A stretch of 64,000 bases of DNA from Jeotgalibacillus malaysiensis (GTDB taxonomy: Bacteria; Bacillota; Bacilli; Bacillales; Jeotgalibacillaceae), in NCBI GenBank assembly GCA_000818095.1, contig CP009416.1, forward strand, positions 2,402,501 to 2,466,500, read 5' to 3'. Every line of letters begins with the position of its first letter. Position 1 is the stretch's first letter. The notes beneath the pieces are model-generated. The model made no database searches and was not told the DNA's origin. It worked only from the letters and a program-made list of their open reading frames with translations. Both the position numbers and the translations under genes were made by a program. Positions 15,740 to 56,275 of the stretch are shown here, piece by piece.

Positions 15740-15968
15740 GGGGATTGCGGTGACACAGGGGGGACGGAGGTGAGTGTGACGTTATTGGAATGATTATAAA
15801 AATGGCGCGGCCGGGGACAGAGTTACGTGATTCAATTTTAGAATCGTTACAAAAGTGGCACAGCCAGGGACGGAGTTAAGTGATTCAATTTTAGAATCGT
15901 AACAAAAGTGGTACAGCCAGGGACGGAGTTAAGTGATTCAATTTTAGAATCGTTATAAAAATGAACCA
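15740..15968 (+). repeat. 53-bp tandem repeat, three units plus one degenerate
   Basis: Units start at 15810, 15863 and 15916, exactly 53 bp apart, and share the core GGGACGGAGTTAAGTGATTC. Each unit has a GATTC/GAATC inverted repeat around an AT-rich loop. A fourth, degenerate unit precedes them (about 15755-15809). The sequence immediately beyond the IS element reads ACTCCGTCCCC, the inverse of the unit start, so the IS entered at the edge of this structure. Confidence 0.85.
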
Positions 15969-16030: not shown

Positions 16031-16597
16031 ATGGTTAAATACAATGAGAAGTTTAAATTGATGATTGTGAAAGAATATTTGAACGGTCCTCATGGTATTA
16101 GAATTTTAGCACGTAAGCATGGTATTCAATCTAAAACGCAGATCTTTAATTGGGTGAATATCTATCGGCACTTTGGTGAAGAAGGGTTGAAGAAAAAGAA
16201 AAAGGCATTTTATTCTGTTCAATTTAAACTGGATGTAATAAGCTTTATGGACAGAACAGGTGCTTCCCAAACTGAAACAGCCCTTCAATTTAGACTAACG
16301 AACCCATCGTTAATTGGCGAATGGAAGAAAAAGTTCCTTGAAGGGGGTTATGAAGCACTAGAGAACCCGAGAGGACAATCAACCATGTCAGATAAAAAGA
16401 AGAATGGTCAAAACGAGACAGCCTCTAATCAAAATGAAGCGTCTAACAGAGAAAAAGAATTAGAGAGAGAAAACGAGTTATTACGTCTTGAGGTTGCTTA
16501 TTTAAAAAAGTTAAAAGCTTTTCAGAAGGATCCGAACAACTATCTCGAAAAGCACAAGCAGCGCTATCGTTCGAACTCAAAGAAACATTCAGACTAA
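16031..16597 (+). CDS. IS3-type transposase OrfA
   Basis: A 188-residue DNA-binding protein with two helix-turn-helix segments (about residues 10-55 and 65-115) and a leucine-zipper-like coil near residues 140-165 (REKELERENELLRLEVAYLKKL), as in IS150-type OrfA. Its codons include the perfect slippery heptamer A AAA AAG at 16504-16510. Slipping back by one base there joins it to the orfB frame, which is open from that point. OrfA recognises the element ends. Confidence 0.92.
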   Translation: MVKYNEKFKLMIVKEYLNGPHGIRILARKHGIQSKTQIFNWVNIYRHFGEEGLKKKKKAFYSVQFKLDVISFMDRTGASQTETALQFRLTNPSLIGEWKKKFLEGGYEALENPRGQSTMSDKKKNGQNETASNQNEASNREKELERENELLRLEVAYLKKLKAFQKDPNNYLEKHKQRYRSNSKKHSD

Positions 16598-16608
16598 AGG
16601 ATGTATTA

Positions 16609-17424
16609 ATGGTTGTAGGCATTCCTGAAGCTTCCTATCATTATCATATTAAACGGATGCATAATGTTAATCCGGATCAGGAGCTTGAAGATCAGATTCG
16701 ATTCATCTTCGATGCCCACAATGGCAACTATGGGTACCGTCGAATCCAGGCGGCACTTAAGAGTGACGGGCTGATCATCAATCATAAAAAGGTTCAACGG
16801 ATTATGAAAAAGCTTGGCTTAAAAGGCTTAAAGTTCAGAAGGAAATCTAGAAGCTATAGCTCTTACAAAGGTACCGTAGGTAACGTGGCCAAGAACAGGT
16901 TGAATCGCCGTTTTCAAACAGCTCATCCTCTTCAAAAGCTGGCAACCGATATTACTGAATTCAAATGCTTAGGTGGCGGAAAGTTGTACCTGAGCCCGAT
17001 CCTGGATATGCATAATAGTGAAGTGATTTCATTTGGCGTCAGTCAACATCCGACATTGGATTTCGTTATGAAACCATTAGAAGAAGCTCTGAACCTTGTT
17101 AAGTATGCAAAATACCGTACAACTATTCACTCTGATCAAGGATGGCATTATCAGCACTATACATGGGTCAAGGCCCTGAAAGGGCAAAAGGTATTTCAAA
17201 GTATGTCCCGAAAAGGAAATTGTATCGACAATGCCCTTATGGAGAACTTTTTTGGTTTACTAAAGCAGGAAATGTATTATGGAGAGAAGTTACGCACATA
17301 CGAAGAACTTAAAAAAGATATTGAAACGTATATCCATTATTACAACCATGATCGAATCAAACAAAAGTTGGCTGGCATGAGTCCGGTTCAATATCGTCTG
17401 CATACCAGCCAAATGGCTGCTTAA
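16609..17424 (+). CDS. IS3-type transposase OrfB (DDE integrase)
   Basis: An rve-type catalytic domain of 271 residues if started at ATG 16609, with the three acidic positions in LATDITEF, TIHSDQGWHY and CIDNALMENFF, followed by the family K/R seven residues later. The -1 frame is open from the slippery site at 16504-16510, so the true product is probably an OrfAB fusion made by ribosomal frameshifting. It is complete, with no stop or deletion. Confidence 0.92.
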   Translation: MVVGIPEASYHYHIKRMHNVNPDQELEDQIRFIFDAHNGNYGYRRIQAALKSDGLIINHKKVQRIMKKLGLKGLKFRRKSRSYSSYKGTVGNVAKNRLNRRFQTAHPLQKLATDITEFKCLGGGKLYLSPILDMHNSEVISFGVSQHPTLDFVMKPLEEALNLVKYAKYRTTIHSDQGWHYQHYTWVKALKGQKVFQSMSRKGNCIDNALMENFFGLLKQEMYYGEKLRTYEELKKDIETYIHYYNHDRIKQKLAGMSPVQYRLHTSQMAA

Positions 17425-17484
17425 TAAAAACTCTAACTTTTGGGGGTCACATCAACTCCGTCCCCAGTAAACCGCACACCATCG

Positions 17485-18114
17485 AAATGCGGAAGGCGCT
17501 TGCCCAGCTCCGACAGGCATAAGACGCGGAGCGGAAAACGGATGACCTTTACCGTTTACCGATGCGCGGCTTATGACCCGAGGAGCTAGCGCCTGGAGCT
17601 GGACACCAAGAAATGCGGAAGGCGCTTGCCCAGCTCCGACAGGCATAAGACGCGGAGCGGAAAACGGGTGACCTTTCCCGTTTACCGATGCGTGGCTTAT
17701 GTCCCGAGGAGCTAGCGCCTGGAGCTGGACACAATCGAAATGCGGAAGCGCCTTGTTCAGACCCGACAAGCGTAAGACGAGCTGAGAGAAATGGGCGACC
17801 TTTCCCATTTTCTCAGCTTGGCTTACGACTCGAGGGTCTAGGCGCCTGGAGCTGGACACAATCGAAATGCGGAAGCGCCTTGTTCAGACCCGACAAGCGT
17901 AAGACGAGCTGAGAGAAATGGGCGACCTTTCCCATTTTCTCAGCTTGGCTTACGACTCGAGGGTCTAGGCGCCTGGAGCTGGACACAATCGAAATGCGGA
18001 AGCGCCTTGTTCAGACCCGACAAGCGTAAGACGAGCTGAGAGAAATGGGCGACCTTTCCCATTTTCTCAGCTTGGCTTACGACTCGAGGGTCTAGGCGCC
18101 TGGAGCTGGACACA
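17485..18114. repeat. five tandem ~127-bp hairpin units
   Basis: Units start at 17485, 17611, 17738, 17865 and 17992 and are 126-127 bp long. Units 1-2 form one sequence type and units 3-5 another; units 3-5 look identical. Each unit begins AAATGCGGAAG and ends GCGCCTGGAGCTGGACAC. Inside, several nested complements (AGCTGAGA/TCTCAGCT, CGTAAG/CTTACG, GACCC/GGGTC) fold each unit into one long hairpin. The apparent reading frames through it are repeat artefacts. Confidence 0.9.
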
Positions 18115-18116
18115 AA

Positions 18117-18147
18117 AAAAGGAAACGCCCAAAAAGGACATTCCCCA
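18117..18147 (-). terminator. terminator after pepA
   Basis: On the minus strand an imperfect stem, GGAA...TTCC with an inner CC/GG pairing, is followed by seven T. It is of moderate strength and directly abuts the repeat array. Confidence 0.6.
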
Positions 18148-18154
18148 TCCAACT

Positions 18155-19669
18155 TTACTTCTCCGCTCTCTCAAGCACAAACTGCTCTGTCAACAGCGCA
18201 AGGGTTCTGGCCATTGCACCTGTTCCGCCTGCTGGGCCTAAAAGATTAGCTGATTTTGTTGTGGCGGTTCCTGCGATATCAAGGTGAACCCATGGTGTGC
18301 CTTCTGTGAATTCTCCGATGAATGCACCGGCAAATAATGCGTGGCCGTCGCGTCCTGGTGAGTTGTTCAGGTCGGCTACCGGGCTGTTGCGTACACGCTT
18401 TCTGTCGCCTTCTGTGTAAGGCAGCTGCCAGATAAACTCTCCTGCTTCCACAGAAGCCTCAAGTACTTTTTCAAATAGTGGTTCATTGTTCGTCAGGGCA
18501 CCTGTTTTATCAAGACCCAGCGCGACAATAACACCGCCTGTAAGCGTCGCTACATCTACAAGGTAATTAGCGCCATGTTGTTTTGCGTACGTTACAGCGT
18601 CAGCCAGTACGAGGCGGCCTTCTGCATCTGTATTAAGAATTTCGATCGTTTTGCCGCTCATCGATGTGATGACATCATCCGGTTTAAATGCAGTGTGACT
18701 GATCATATTGTCAGTTGCTGCGATGACTGCCATCACATTTTGCTCAGGCTTCAGGCGGCCGATGATTTCCATTGCACCGAGTACGGCTGCTGCACCGCCC
18801 ATATCGGCTTTCATGCCTACGATACCGTCTTTAGGCTTAATTGAATAGCCGCCTGTATCAAATGTGATACCTTTGCCGACAAGTGCAAGTACGTCTTCCC
18901 ACTTTTCAGTCGCCTGATGCTTCATGACGATCATGCGGGGCGGGATTTCTGAGCCCTGGTTGACTGCAAGCAGCGCACCCATTCCCATTTCTTCGATTTC
19001 TTTTTTTCCAAGAATTTCGATCTCAAAATCATGTCGTTCTGCCATTTCCTTTGCATATTCAGCCATTTTTACAGAAGTCAGCAGGTTGGATGGCATATTT
19101 ACAAGCGTTCTTGCTTCGTTGGTTCCTTCTGCGAGTGCGAGTCCCACTTCGAGCGCGGCCTCAATTTCCTGTGCATCATGATCTGTGTAGATGTGCAGTT
19201 CTTCAAGCTCTACTTCAGGCACATTGGATTTCTTTTTATAGCCTTCGAATTCATACATTGAAAGCGTCACACCTTCAATCAGTGCCTGGGCAATATCTGT
19301 CGCTTCGAATTCTTTTCCTTTAAAAGAATCAAGTGCAACTGCCAGCGATGAAACCTTCTTCTTTTTCAGTGTCTTACCGAGAGCACCAAAGCTTTCTCTG
19401 AGGTCATCAAATGTCAGATTTGATTCCTTACCGAGGCCAGTGAAAATGACTCTTTTCGCATCAAGTGCACCAAGCGTCGGTAAAACTGTTACCTGCTTCT
19501 CTTTAGTTTCGACGTCACCTTCTTTGATTAGATCCGTCAGACCGCCGTTCATCTGCTCATCTATTTCTTTTGAAAAACCTGAGACCACAGGCTGGTTCCA
19601 GACACCTGCTGCTAAATAATCGTACTTCGTTTTAAGTACGTTTTCATTTGTATGTATTGTCCATTTCAT
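18155..19669 (-). CDS. pepA: leucyl aminopeptidase, family M17
   Basis: A 504-residue cytosolic, two-metal aminopeptidase that trims N-terminal residues from peptides. The C-terminal catalytic domain (about residues 180-500) shows [29 protein letters not shown] and the signature [13 protein letters not shown] with metal and catalytic residues. The N-terminal macro-like domain is complete. I chose ATG 19669 because GGAGGTG lies 7 nt before it. The gene equals yuiE in the B. subtilis yui cluster. It diverges from yuiD. Confidence 0.93.
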
Positions 19670-19792
19670 ATCAAACACCTCCAATTGTTTAGTATACTGT
19701 AAATGTTGTGATAATTCGATTACGGGACATCCGGAAACGTTTTGTTCTGTGGTATACTAGCTTAAAACTCCTGCCACTTGAAAGGATGACTA

Positions 19793-39904: not shown

Positions 39905-40090
39905 TCACGATCTGTAGCTCCTCAACCCGCAAAACTGCTGCGGAAAGAGAGTGTTATCCTTCTTAAAGATAACCCCAATGATAAAACCCTGACTGATTGT
40001 TACCATTTCGGCAGTGATTCCCTTTCATCTGTGATCGCAGTTGTCATCCTCACACAGATTACTCATAAATCCTGCTCCTCTACCCCATCG
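39905..40090 (-). promoter_or_regulatory. lysine riboswitch (L box)
   Basis: The minus strand carries the conserved L-box blocks in order: AGAGGAGC near 40081, AGTA near 40062, TGAAAGGG near 40024, TGCCGAA near 40010, a GGGTTTTATCATTGGGG region, and GGAGCTAC near 39918 closing P1. A terminator follows directly. Lysine binding should cut transcription of the NhaC-type gene. Confidence 0.88.
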
Positions 40091-43477: not shown

Positions 43478-44299
43478 TTAACCTAATCCCTCGATAATTG
43501 ATCTGATCCCGATCAGTACGAGTATGATTCTAAGCACAAACACAAGCTTGTCGGATTGAAGCTTCTGGTTCATCCACGCCCCAAGCTTTGCGCCAAACCA
43601 TGCGCCAGGCGCAAGCAGAGCCACATAAAGCCAGTCCACATTACCAAGCGCTATATGTGAAGCAGAACCGAGCAATGCCGAAAGAAATACCATCAGCATC
43701 GATGTTCCCACTGCTACATGAGGCGGGAATAAAAATGCAATGATCATAATCGGCACCATAACGGATCCGCCACCGATACCAAATAATCCTGATGCAAATC
43801 CGACAGCAAATGCAGCAAGAATCCCTGCAATCGGCGGGAATCCGTATGTCCATTGTACGCCCTGCGGATCAGTAAAATGCCGCTGGTAGGAAGCTGACTT
43901 GAACTTTTCAATCGGTCTGATTTTATTTCTGATCAGCAGAATGAAAGATAAAAAGATCATAAACAGTCCGAAATATAGATGAAACGATCCTAATGTCAGG
44001 TACTGATTCGTGTAGGATCCCACAATTGCACCGGGTCCGCTCCCTGCAAAAAAGATCAGTCCACTTTTAACATCAACTGTTTTCGTTTTTAAATAAGCAA
44101 GAGTTGATGATAACCCAGTAAAGATCATCACAACCAAAGAAATGCCGACAGCAGTCTGCGGCGTGATACCATCGATCCACATCAGTGCCGGTCCAAAAAA
44201 CAGTAATGCCGGCACGACAATAACGCCACCACCAAGTCCGATCAGCGAACCGATCGCACCTGCTGCAAGCCCGATTAGAGGCAGTAACAACCATTCCAT
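43478..44299 (-). CDS. yunE: TauE/SafE family membrane permease YunE
   Basis: A 273-residue, eight-helix permease with the repeated family motif: LAAGAIGSLIGLGGGVIVVP at the start and FASGLFGIGGGSVMVPIMI in the second half. TauE/SafE proteins export sulfite, sulfoacetate or related small anions; the substrate here is unknown. It is spaced 17 bp from yunF and is probably in one operon yunFED. Confidence 0.88.
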   Translation of the reverse strand: MEWLLLPLIGLAAGAIGSLIGLGGGVIVVPALLFFGPALMWIDGITPQTAVGISLVVMIFTGLSSTLAYLKTKTVDVKSGLIFFAGSGPGAIVGSYTNQYLTLGSFHLYFGLFMIFLSFILLIRNKIRPIEKFKSASYQRHFTDPQGVQWTYGFPPIAGILAAFAVGFASGLFGIGGGSVMVPIMIIAFLFPPHVAVGTSMLMVFLSALLGSASHIALGNVDWLYVALLAPGAWFGAKLGAWMNQKLQSDKLVFVLRIILVLIGIRSIIEGLG

Positions 44300-44316
44300 T
44301 TATTCTTCATTCCAAT

Positions 44317-45165
44317 CTAAAATAAGTCGAGCTGTCTCGGCGCCAGACCTCCATAATCCAGTCCCAGCAGTTCGATCATTGTTTTCGCGTTAGCGGCTGC
44401 GTGACCGCCTGAATTATTATTAAAGAGTACATACACTTTATCGGACGCACGGTCCAGCTTTTGAAGAACCGGCACAAGATCTTTCAGTTCAGCTTCACGA
44501 TAATCATAAAGGTAACGTACTTCACGCCAGCTGTTCTCATTGCCTTTCTTCGTCCAGCCGGCTACATTTCTTCCGTGCAGCCTGAATACAGTTACACCTT
44601 GATGTGTACTTTCTGCAATCAGCGGAATCGATCCTTCACCAGCCTGCGGTTCATCACAGACGCTGTGAATCAGCTCTTCATCCTTTAAAAACTGAAGCGT
44701 CCTGTCACGGAACTCATCTGAATACCAGGTCTGATTTCTGAATTCAACTGCGAGCGGAAGCCCCTCAAGCTGCTGCTTACAATAGCGTATGTAATCGACA
44801 TTCTGCTTCTGGCAGTCAAACCACGGCGGATATTGTAATAATACGACGCCCAGTTTGTCCGCCTCGATTAAGGTAGTCAGTGAAAGACGGAATGCCTTAA
44901 ACATCTCCTCTTTCGATTCAAAAGGAATATCTCCGCGCTGATGCCCGGTCATTCCCTGATAAGCCTTTACAATAAACTTAAATGAGTCAGGCGTCTCAGC
45001 CACCCACTTTTTCATATTGCGCTCAGGCTGAACTGCATAAAATGATGCATCGAGTTCCACAATCGGGAAATGTCCTGCATAATCCTTCAGTTTGTCCTGC
45101 TTCGATGAATGCTCATCATATACATCCGGATGATCTCCCCACCCGGTCAAACCGATATAAATCAC
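44317..45165 (-). CDS. yunF: DUF72 protein YunF
   Basis: A 282-residue TIM-barrel-like DUF72 protein with YIGLTGWGDHPDVYDE, VELDASFYAVQ, LLQYPPWFDC, AVEFRNQTWYSDE and YVLFNNNSGGHAAANA. The family occurs in all domains without an assigned reaction, though related to endonuclease-IV-like barrels. GAAGGTGAT precedes the ATG. It is the first gene of the yunFED group. Confidence 0.9.
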   Translation of the reverse strand: MIYIGLTGWGDHPDVYDEHSSKQDKLKDYAGHFPIVELDASFYAVQPERNMKKWVAETPDSFKFIVKAYQGMTGHQRGDIPFESKEEMFKAFRLSLTTLIEADKLGVVLLQYPPWFDCQKQNVDYIRYCKQQLEGLPLAVEFRNQTWYSDEFRDRTLQFLKDEELIHSVCDEPQAGEGSIPLIAESTHQGVTVFRLHGRNVAGWTKKGNENSWREVRYLYDYREAELKDLVPVLQKLDRASDKVYVLFNNNSGGHAAANAKTMIELLGLDYGGLAPRQLDLF

Positions 45166-56162: not shown

Positions 56163-56275
56163 CTTTCTCTCATCTGCCAGGTATCAACCTGTGTGACTTG
56201 GCACCTTTCCAGTAAACTGTCGGTTGCCGGGCTTCATAGGGCACTTCCCTCCGCCGCTCTTGATAAGAGTTTGCG
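56163..56275 (-). promoter_or_regulatory. SAM riboswitch (S box)
   Basis: On the minus strand the S-box blocks appear in order: CTTATCAAGAG, GGAGGGA, CCCTATGAAGCCCGGCAACC, AAGGTGCCAA, and GATGAGAG closing P1, then a terminator. SAM should stop transcription of metNPQ. Confidence 0.94.

Follow-up and report, generated by a model that had tools for sequence, protein, structure and literature searches.

A tandem array of hairpin units beside pepA in Jeotgalibacillus malaysiensis, probably a cluster of a mobile, structure-conserved repeat family found across the order

Between an insertion sequence and pepA, the genome of Jeotgalibacillus malaysiensis carries five hairpin units arranged head to tail. 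The array raises the question of what kind of sequence these units are and how they came to stand in tandem. We analysed a 64,000-nucleotide stretch (the window; contig CP009416.1, positions 2,402,501 to 2,466,500 of the forward strand) and followed its hairpin units into other genomes. The array lies at 17484-18112 on the plus strand and consists of units of 122 nt separated by linkers of 4-5 nt. Its parts and neighbours are listed here, with scores from the covariance model R1, which is described below.

16031..16597, plus strand: first ORF of an IS transposase (Pfam HTH_28, HTH_Tnp_1), left of the array
16609..17424, plus strand: second ORF of the IS transposase (Pfam HTH_21, rve, rve_2), presumably IS3-like, left of the array
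17484..17605, plus strand: hairpin unit 1, of the sub-type whose outer stem is GGCGCT/AGCGCC; R1 124.5 bits; fold -55 kcal/mol, z -5.2 (folded with its linker)
17606..17609, plus strand: linker CCAA, separating units 1 and 2
17610..17731, plus strand: hairpin unit 2, sub-type as unit 1 and 96.7% identical to it; R1 125.1 bits; fold -58.7 kcal/mol
17732..17736, plus strand: linker CAATC, recurring at 17859-17863 and 17986-17990
17737..17858, plus strand: hairpin unit 3, of the sub-type whose outer stem is GCGCCT/AGGCGC; R1 130.8 bits; fold -56.3 kcal/mol, z -5.6
17864..17985, plus strand: hairpin unit 4, same sequence as unit 3 (R1 match and identity comparison)
17991..18112, plus strand: hairpin unit 5, same sequence as unit 3 (R1 match and identity comparison)
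18110..18146, minus strand: predicted terminator-like hairpin 3' of pepA, whose T-tract (an A-tract on the plus strand) abuts the array end
18155..19684, minus strand: pepA (Peptidase_M17, Pfam E 1e-113), right of the array, with its stop at 18155

An earlier note, made from the sequence alone, had described a five-unit head-to-tail array next to an IS element and pepA. This array is real: R1 gave five matches at 17484-18112, the one array called here by Tandem Repeats Finder has a period of 127 and a score of 840, and Pfam identified both neighbours. The R1 scores of the window units (124.5-130.8 bits) include units 1 and 3, which were among the 57 units from which the model was built. The two sub-types that the note had distinguished were found as well. 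Units 1 and 2 share 76-78% identity (about 77%) with units 3-5 when gaps are allowed, and 64% without gaps in the case of the family reference. Units 3-5 are 100% identical, and an exact period-127 run extends over 401 bp (17715-18115). The claim that each unit folds completely held when units 1, 2 and 3 and the other strand of unit 3 were folded. Each gave one long hairpin of -55 to -59 kcal/mol, compared to means of -35 to -41 for dinucleotide-shuffled sequences (z -5.0 to -6.6), and none of 200 shuffles was as good.

The array does not stand at a stop codon. On the left, 59 nt separate it from the IS ORF; on the right it meets the pepA terminator in reverse orientation. The terminator-like match itself (18146-18120, tail TTTTTTGTGT) is weak when taken alone, since shuffled sequences average 1.4 such matches. 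In the gap between the IS and the antiporter gene, at 15794-15960, we also noticed a 53-bp direct repeat in 3.2 copies, whose motif GGGACGGAGTT reappears reversed to the right of the IS at about 17454.

To describe the family, an iterated nhmmer search over 57 loci yielded 100 distinct full units, and 57 representatives (<90% identity) were aligned (alignment A1) with a 39-pair structure. The covariance model R1 was made from these 57 units. The ends of the consensus are well conserved (GAAAAGCGGAAG ... CTGGAGCTGGACA). The frame consists of two outer stems and a conserved internal stretch CGACAAGCATAAG / CTTATGACTCGAG, while the inner stem varies freely with its pairing preserved by compensatory change. 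The size of the unit is 115-147 nt across the family. Next to these type A units there is a type X of 143-147 nt, which has the same ends and outer stems and a different inner domain (GATAAAGGAAACAC ... GATGTTGACTTATC). The two types can be interleaved in one array, as at locus L080 (16-713), where the order is A-X-X-A-X. The base pairing is supported by very strong covariation. In A1, 89.5% of cells are paired and both members vary in 33 of the 39 pairs; the score for covariation reaches 0.430 vs. 0.159 after shuffling and 0.05-0.14 when slid. For 46 distinct units from other genera, outside the training set of R1 yet aligned by it, 95.9% of cells were paired, 34 of 39 pairs were double-changed, and the score was 0.607 vs. 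0.173 for shuffled. G-U combinations outnumber A-C in the paired cells of A1 (118 vs. 51). Leaving out one conserved G-U pair, the counts are 76 vs. 51, a modest asymmetry that ignores the kinship of the units. This excess suggests that it is the unit strand that folds.

R1 found 63 matches in this genome, some of them partial or of type X and two of them antisense echoes that were dropped before grouping. All 63 lie on the 3.52 Mb contig. The second contig (0.60 Mb, by difference) has none, and about 9 would be expected from its size. All 12 genomes of the genus were positive, with 19-91 places each. Across the order, 214 of 299 genomes in 81 of 116 genera carried a match, and in a sample of the phylum the positives were 3 of 299 genomes, all three from this order; both scans scored at most 12 candidates per genome under stricter filters, so that they count genomes rather than copies and can miss weak copies. 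Among the phylum genomes listed, whose sequence appears to follow kinship, one further member of this order is matchless, which leaves the other 295 as negatives. The order is meant here in the sense of GTDB; NCBI places Jeotgalibacillus in the Caryophanales, the former Bacillales. A 33-base pattern of the unit, sought in a collection of 84,980 species from which the window's own record may have been excluded, occurred in eight stretches, all from Jeotgalibacillus alimentarius, terrae or salarius.

The units were not recognised as a known RNA family, and we rejected this assignment: no Rfam covariance model reached its gathering score on the array. Below threshold, the units gave mir-3200 (21 bits, cut-off 79) and mir-1803 (20.2, cut-off 95), and suhB (24.3, cut-off 41) was placed at 18105-18146, where its overlap with the array is confined to the final 8 nt. 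Carriage by phages or plasmids is likewise unsupported by searches with the window unit and the X unit, neither of which matched in phages or plasmids. Three viral stretches contain a 17-base pattern; one of them has an R1 unit, at the very edge of the stretch. With a unit from another genus as the query, one plasmid record was found, of 690 kb, from Cytobacillus spongiae.

The earlier note had held that such units normally occur singly and that a five-fold array is unusual. The first part was wrong. The R1 matches in this genome, 61 after the echoes were dropped, form 39 groups, six of them at 23S rRNA, and 14 of the other 33 hold at least two matches (in one case a fragment and a unit). Five units is the largest array found in this genome. 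In 111 pooled arrays, drawn from best matches and thus possibly favouring arrays, one full unit was found in 55, two in 28, three in 12, four in 4, five in 4, six in 2, nine in 1 and none in 5. Hence, of the 106 arrays with a full unit, 51 contain several and seven contain at least five; the sizes form a continuum in which the five-fold array has its place. The comparisons of neighbouring units, linkers and flanks were run on this set while it still counted one fragment, which has no linkers, twice (112 entries). In the nine-unit array (L048/L057/L072, G005:C1 ~362947-364047) the pattern repeats at a higher order every three units, about 368 bp.

Of 82 pairs of adjacent units, 22 reached 95% identity or more, and the median over the pairs (0.76) is close to that of random units of this genome (0.77). 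Consecutive linkers were identical in 26 of 59 comparisons, against 0.9% between arrays. Where a middle unit was less than 85% identical to both of its neighbours, the linkers on its two sides were still equal in 13 of 35 cases. Exact duplicates together with unlike units between equal linkers indicate that arrays lengthen through exact duplication and that they also accommodate unlike units without loss of register. The latter could come from gain of units or from gene conversion of unit cores. Comparison of flanks with linkers in 61 arrays revealed no clean target-site duplication: the left flank equalled the first linker in 4 of 61, while consecutive linkers agreed in 26 of 59.

The 3' edges of arrays are ragged. 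Sixteen of 19 type A units truncated at the 3' end stop by model position 65 (p 1e-4 vs. a uniform spread). A recognised partial unit ends 27 of 110 arrays, and 58 of the other 83 end in sequence resembling the start of a unit (background 6.5%). An A-tract followed by a hairpin was present in the right flank of 14 of 103 arrays and in the left flank of 2 of 106 (Fisher p 0.0014); the left flank is the better control for this feature because the background is mostly coding.

The 5' edge is often placed precisely. With ORFs called by a simple longest-ORF rule (at least 80 codons), a same-strand upstream gene was present in 60 of 103 arrays, and the first unit began within 6 nt of its stop codon in 38 of the 103 (14 in this genome, 20 in the genus and 4 in other genera). 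The mirror control, which takes the distance between an array's end and the stop codon of a converging gene, gave 1 of 103, and an opposite-strand gene lay within 6 nt upstream in 3 of 103. Orthologous arrays were thinned, for the stop-codon count only, by locus clusters chained through flank similarity (the largest holds 10), and the figures were then 22 of 72 vs. 1 of 72 for the mirror. The remaining 65 of the 103 arrays, the array of the window among them, are more than 6 nt from any same-strand upstream stop. The position directly after a stop codon, in one orientation, is thus a preferred site of the units, and selection on position or targeted insertion could underlie it.

For eight genes whose stop codon adjoins a unit, we then sought the 3' end across the genus; 78 matches were found and 50 loci compared. 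The same gene end proved to be filled in some genomes and empty in others, so that units come and go there. At one gene end, genome G006 has the stop codon, 11 nt and a terminator-like hairpin, while this genome has two units followed by a similar hairpin; G001 has units there as well, and G011 has only the first half of a unit, about 52 nt. At a second gene end, seven genomes without a unit end in TAA, while this genome, G004 and G011 end in TAG, in which the G is the first base of the unit. For two genes, the unit at the same 3' end is of type A or of type X depending on the species. Gain of units would be the simplest reading of the empty and filled ends, although any one site may instead reflect loss. 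Because units directly follow the gene at these eight ends, the IS in the window may be a mere neighbour of the array.

At the pepA site itself, none of the 11 other species has a unit, and the array is specific to this species among the 12 compared. It may have been gained in this lineage or lost in all 11 others. The absence of units at the orthologous sites and the 401 bp of exact identity bear out the recent amplification that the earlier note had proposed, and units 3-5 are probably the product of recent tandem duplication, for which slippage or unequal crossing-over would suffice for these three units alone. The pepA spacers of G003 and G007 (L161, L163) contain palindromes with GGGGCCAGACCCC or GGGGTCAGACCCC cores, and L160 has a related form; these are perhaps another repeat family.

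Related hairpins also occur after 23S rRNA. With R1 we found a 115-nt hairpin with family-like ends directly 3' of 23S rRNA at six of the eight 23S ends of this genome, the other two being unread. Rfam placed 23S and 5S on either side of the one match that was examined. It is located as follows:

L125 7572-7757 (genome position 44242-44427): hairpin in the 23S-5S spacer (R1); five more such spacers are present

Four other genomes have an R1 match after 23S rRNA, namely G010 and three from other families of the order, one per family (L219 40.6, L229 63.5, L237 61.9 and L231 36.3 bits). At L218 and L227 the ends look alike by eye, yet no R1 match reached E 1. In the loci read from G011, G001, G002, G008, G003 and G009, the 23S spacers are short and have no hairpin.

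We interpret the array in the window as a cluster belonging to a family of short non-coding hairpin repeats that is mobile, conserved in structure and spread across the order, and that would be moved by some enzyme acting in trans. We put the probability of this reading at about 0.65. The picture of an unusual array of normally single repeats would probably give way to that of a widespread, covarying, mobile family in which arrays are common and often lie at gene 3' ends. What stands of the earlier reading is the sub-types, the identical units, the folding and the recent amplification; it had overlooked that the family spans the order, that the pairs covary, that units lie at stop codons and 23S rRNA ends, and that a second unit type exists. 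In the mechanism that we envisage, transcription of the upstream gene would at many sites continue through the folding strand, giving its mRNA a hairpin in the 3' untranslated region. The enzyme, acting in trans, would make new copies and insert them starting from the stop-codon side, as is suggested by a 5' edge that is fixed and a 3' edge that mostly falls within the first arm of a further unit. Units 3-5 of the window would have arisen through recent tandem duplication. More tentatively, the units may constitute a kind of non-autonomous mobile element of their own, with a conserved hairpin frame, an exchangeable interior and sense-strand placement exactly at the 3' ends of genes and 23S rRNA, mobilised in trans. 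Copying would start on the side of the stop codon and proceed until a hairpin arm stalled the polymerase, which would leave whole units plus a fraction. As to the mobilising gene, this genome has no match to Y1 transposase, and a reverse transcriptase is present in only 5 of the 12 genomes of the genus. A simple pattern search of the DNA collected for this analysis gave no convincing larger autonomous element with the same ends.

It is quite possible, at somewhat under even odds, that the hairpin is a functional RNA and not a selfish one, which protects or processes the 3' ends of mRNA and 23S rRNA, for instance by serving RNase III-type enzymes as a substrate, with selection keeping its position and fold. 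The sense-strand bias of the wobble pairs, the stop-codon adjacency in one orientation, the hairpins after 23S rRNA and the strong covariation all agree with such a role. It is harder to reconcile with the variable presence of units at a given gene between species (1 of 12 at pepA), with 19-91 matches per genome in the genus, and with the 65 of 103 arrays that are not adjacent to a stop. A functional role could also be compatible with mobility. It seems unlikely that the array is nothing more than a neutral intergenic repeat multiplied by ordinary slippage or unequal crossing-over. Such a process would account for the identity of units 3-5 and of their linkers and for the 22 of 82 nearly identical neighbours, but not for adjacent units that are on the whole no more alike than random units of this genome, for unlike units in register between equal linkers, or for the empty sites in relatives. 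On present data slippage is insufficient as a full account.

A group II intron-type enzyme acting by reverse transcription is a doubtful candidate for the copying. Such enzymes favour terminator hairpins as targets. The edge fixed at the stop codon, the truncations in the first arm and the A-tract with hairpin in 14 of 103 right flanks vs. 2 of 106 left flanks would suit them, but RVT_1 occurs in only 5 of 12 genomes of the genus and no unit was found in the six RVT_1 loci read, with about 1.5 kb on either side. A linked reverse transcriptase, as expected for derivatives of group II introns, is therefore unsupported. Single-strand transposition of the REP/REPIN kind by a Y1 (RAYT) transposase is slightly more doubtful still. 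The units are palindromic and intergenic with unequal ends and no clean target duplication, and Y1_Tnp is present in 9 of the 12 genomes of the genus; however, the unit measures about 122 nt and not 20-40, Y1_Tnp gave no match in this genome, and the 14 Y1 loci of those nine genomes (46.5 kb) contain no unit. On the last two grounds a Y1/RAYT source is unsupported. Finally, three identical periods of 127 bp are difficult for short reads, but an assembly artefact in the copy number is very improbable, as it cannot produce arrays of non-identical units, which are common elsewhere, and the genome is in two contigs.

We found no earlier description of this hairpin family in the open-access literature, and it is apparently undescribed; bcr1, Bhal-1 and Bant-1 were compared by description only. 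The bcr1 repeat of the Bacillus cereus group, of about 150 nt (PMC2267715), resembles our family in being an intergenic folding repeat of Bacillus with traits of a mobile element. By the title of its paper it is specific to that group, whereas the present family is order-wide; the distinction is one of description and not of sequence. The stem-loop families Bhal-1, Bant-1 and others of Bacillus halodurans and B. anthracis are also intergenic (PMC2267715), and they may be identical with part of our family, although their models measure 72-76 bp and our units 115-147 nt. REP/REPIN sequences are palindromic repeats of 20-40 bp that bear GTAG/CGTC tags, are enriched in intergenic DNA and in part occur in tandem (PMC3733652; see also PMC2817692 and PMC3116915). 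Our units share the palindromic form, the tandem order in some cases and the intergenic enrichment, but they measure about 122-147 nt and have no GTAG/CGTC tag in the consensus ends GAAAAGCGGAAG / CTGGAGCTGGACA, and no linked Y1 gene was found. The MITEs RUP, NEMIS and ERIC are small, non-coding mobile repeats, often near genes and transcribed (PMC3733652). Our units are similarly small, non-coding, mobile and often beside genes. Unlike MITEs they show no terminal inverted repeats, as the first five columns of the 39-pair structure are unpaired and pairing begins at column 6; no clean target duplication was seen, though consecutive linkers agree in 26 of 59 comparisons. Presence and absence at orthologous sites, by which small mobile repeats in the broad sense are recognised, were both observed.

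If our reading is true, about seven in ten genomes of the order (214 of 299 sampled) bear an unnamed structured element, which in the studied genus reaches tens of copies per genome, often in gene 3' regions and sometimes inside rRNA operons. These copies would provide a large natural set for studying the effect of hairpins at stop codons on mRNA ends and the way in which a repeat can target the ends of genes. The search for the mobilising enzyme would become concrete, with 214 genomes that have and 85 that lack a detected copy within one order. Elsewhere in the window, Rfam recognised lysine and SAM riboswitches on the minus strand, at 39907-40090 and 56167-56269, respectively.
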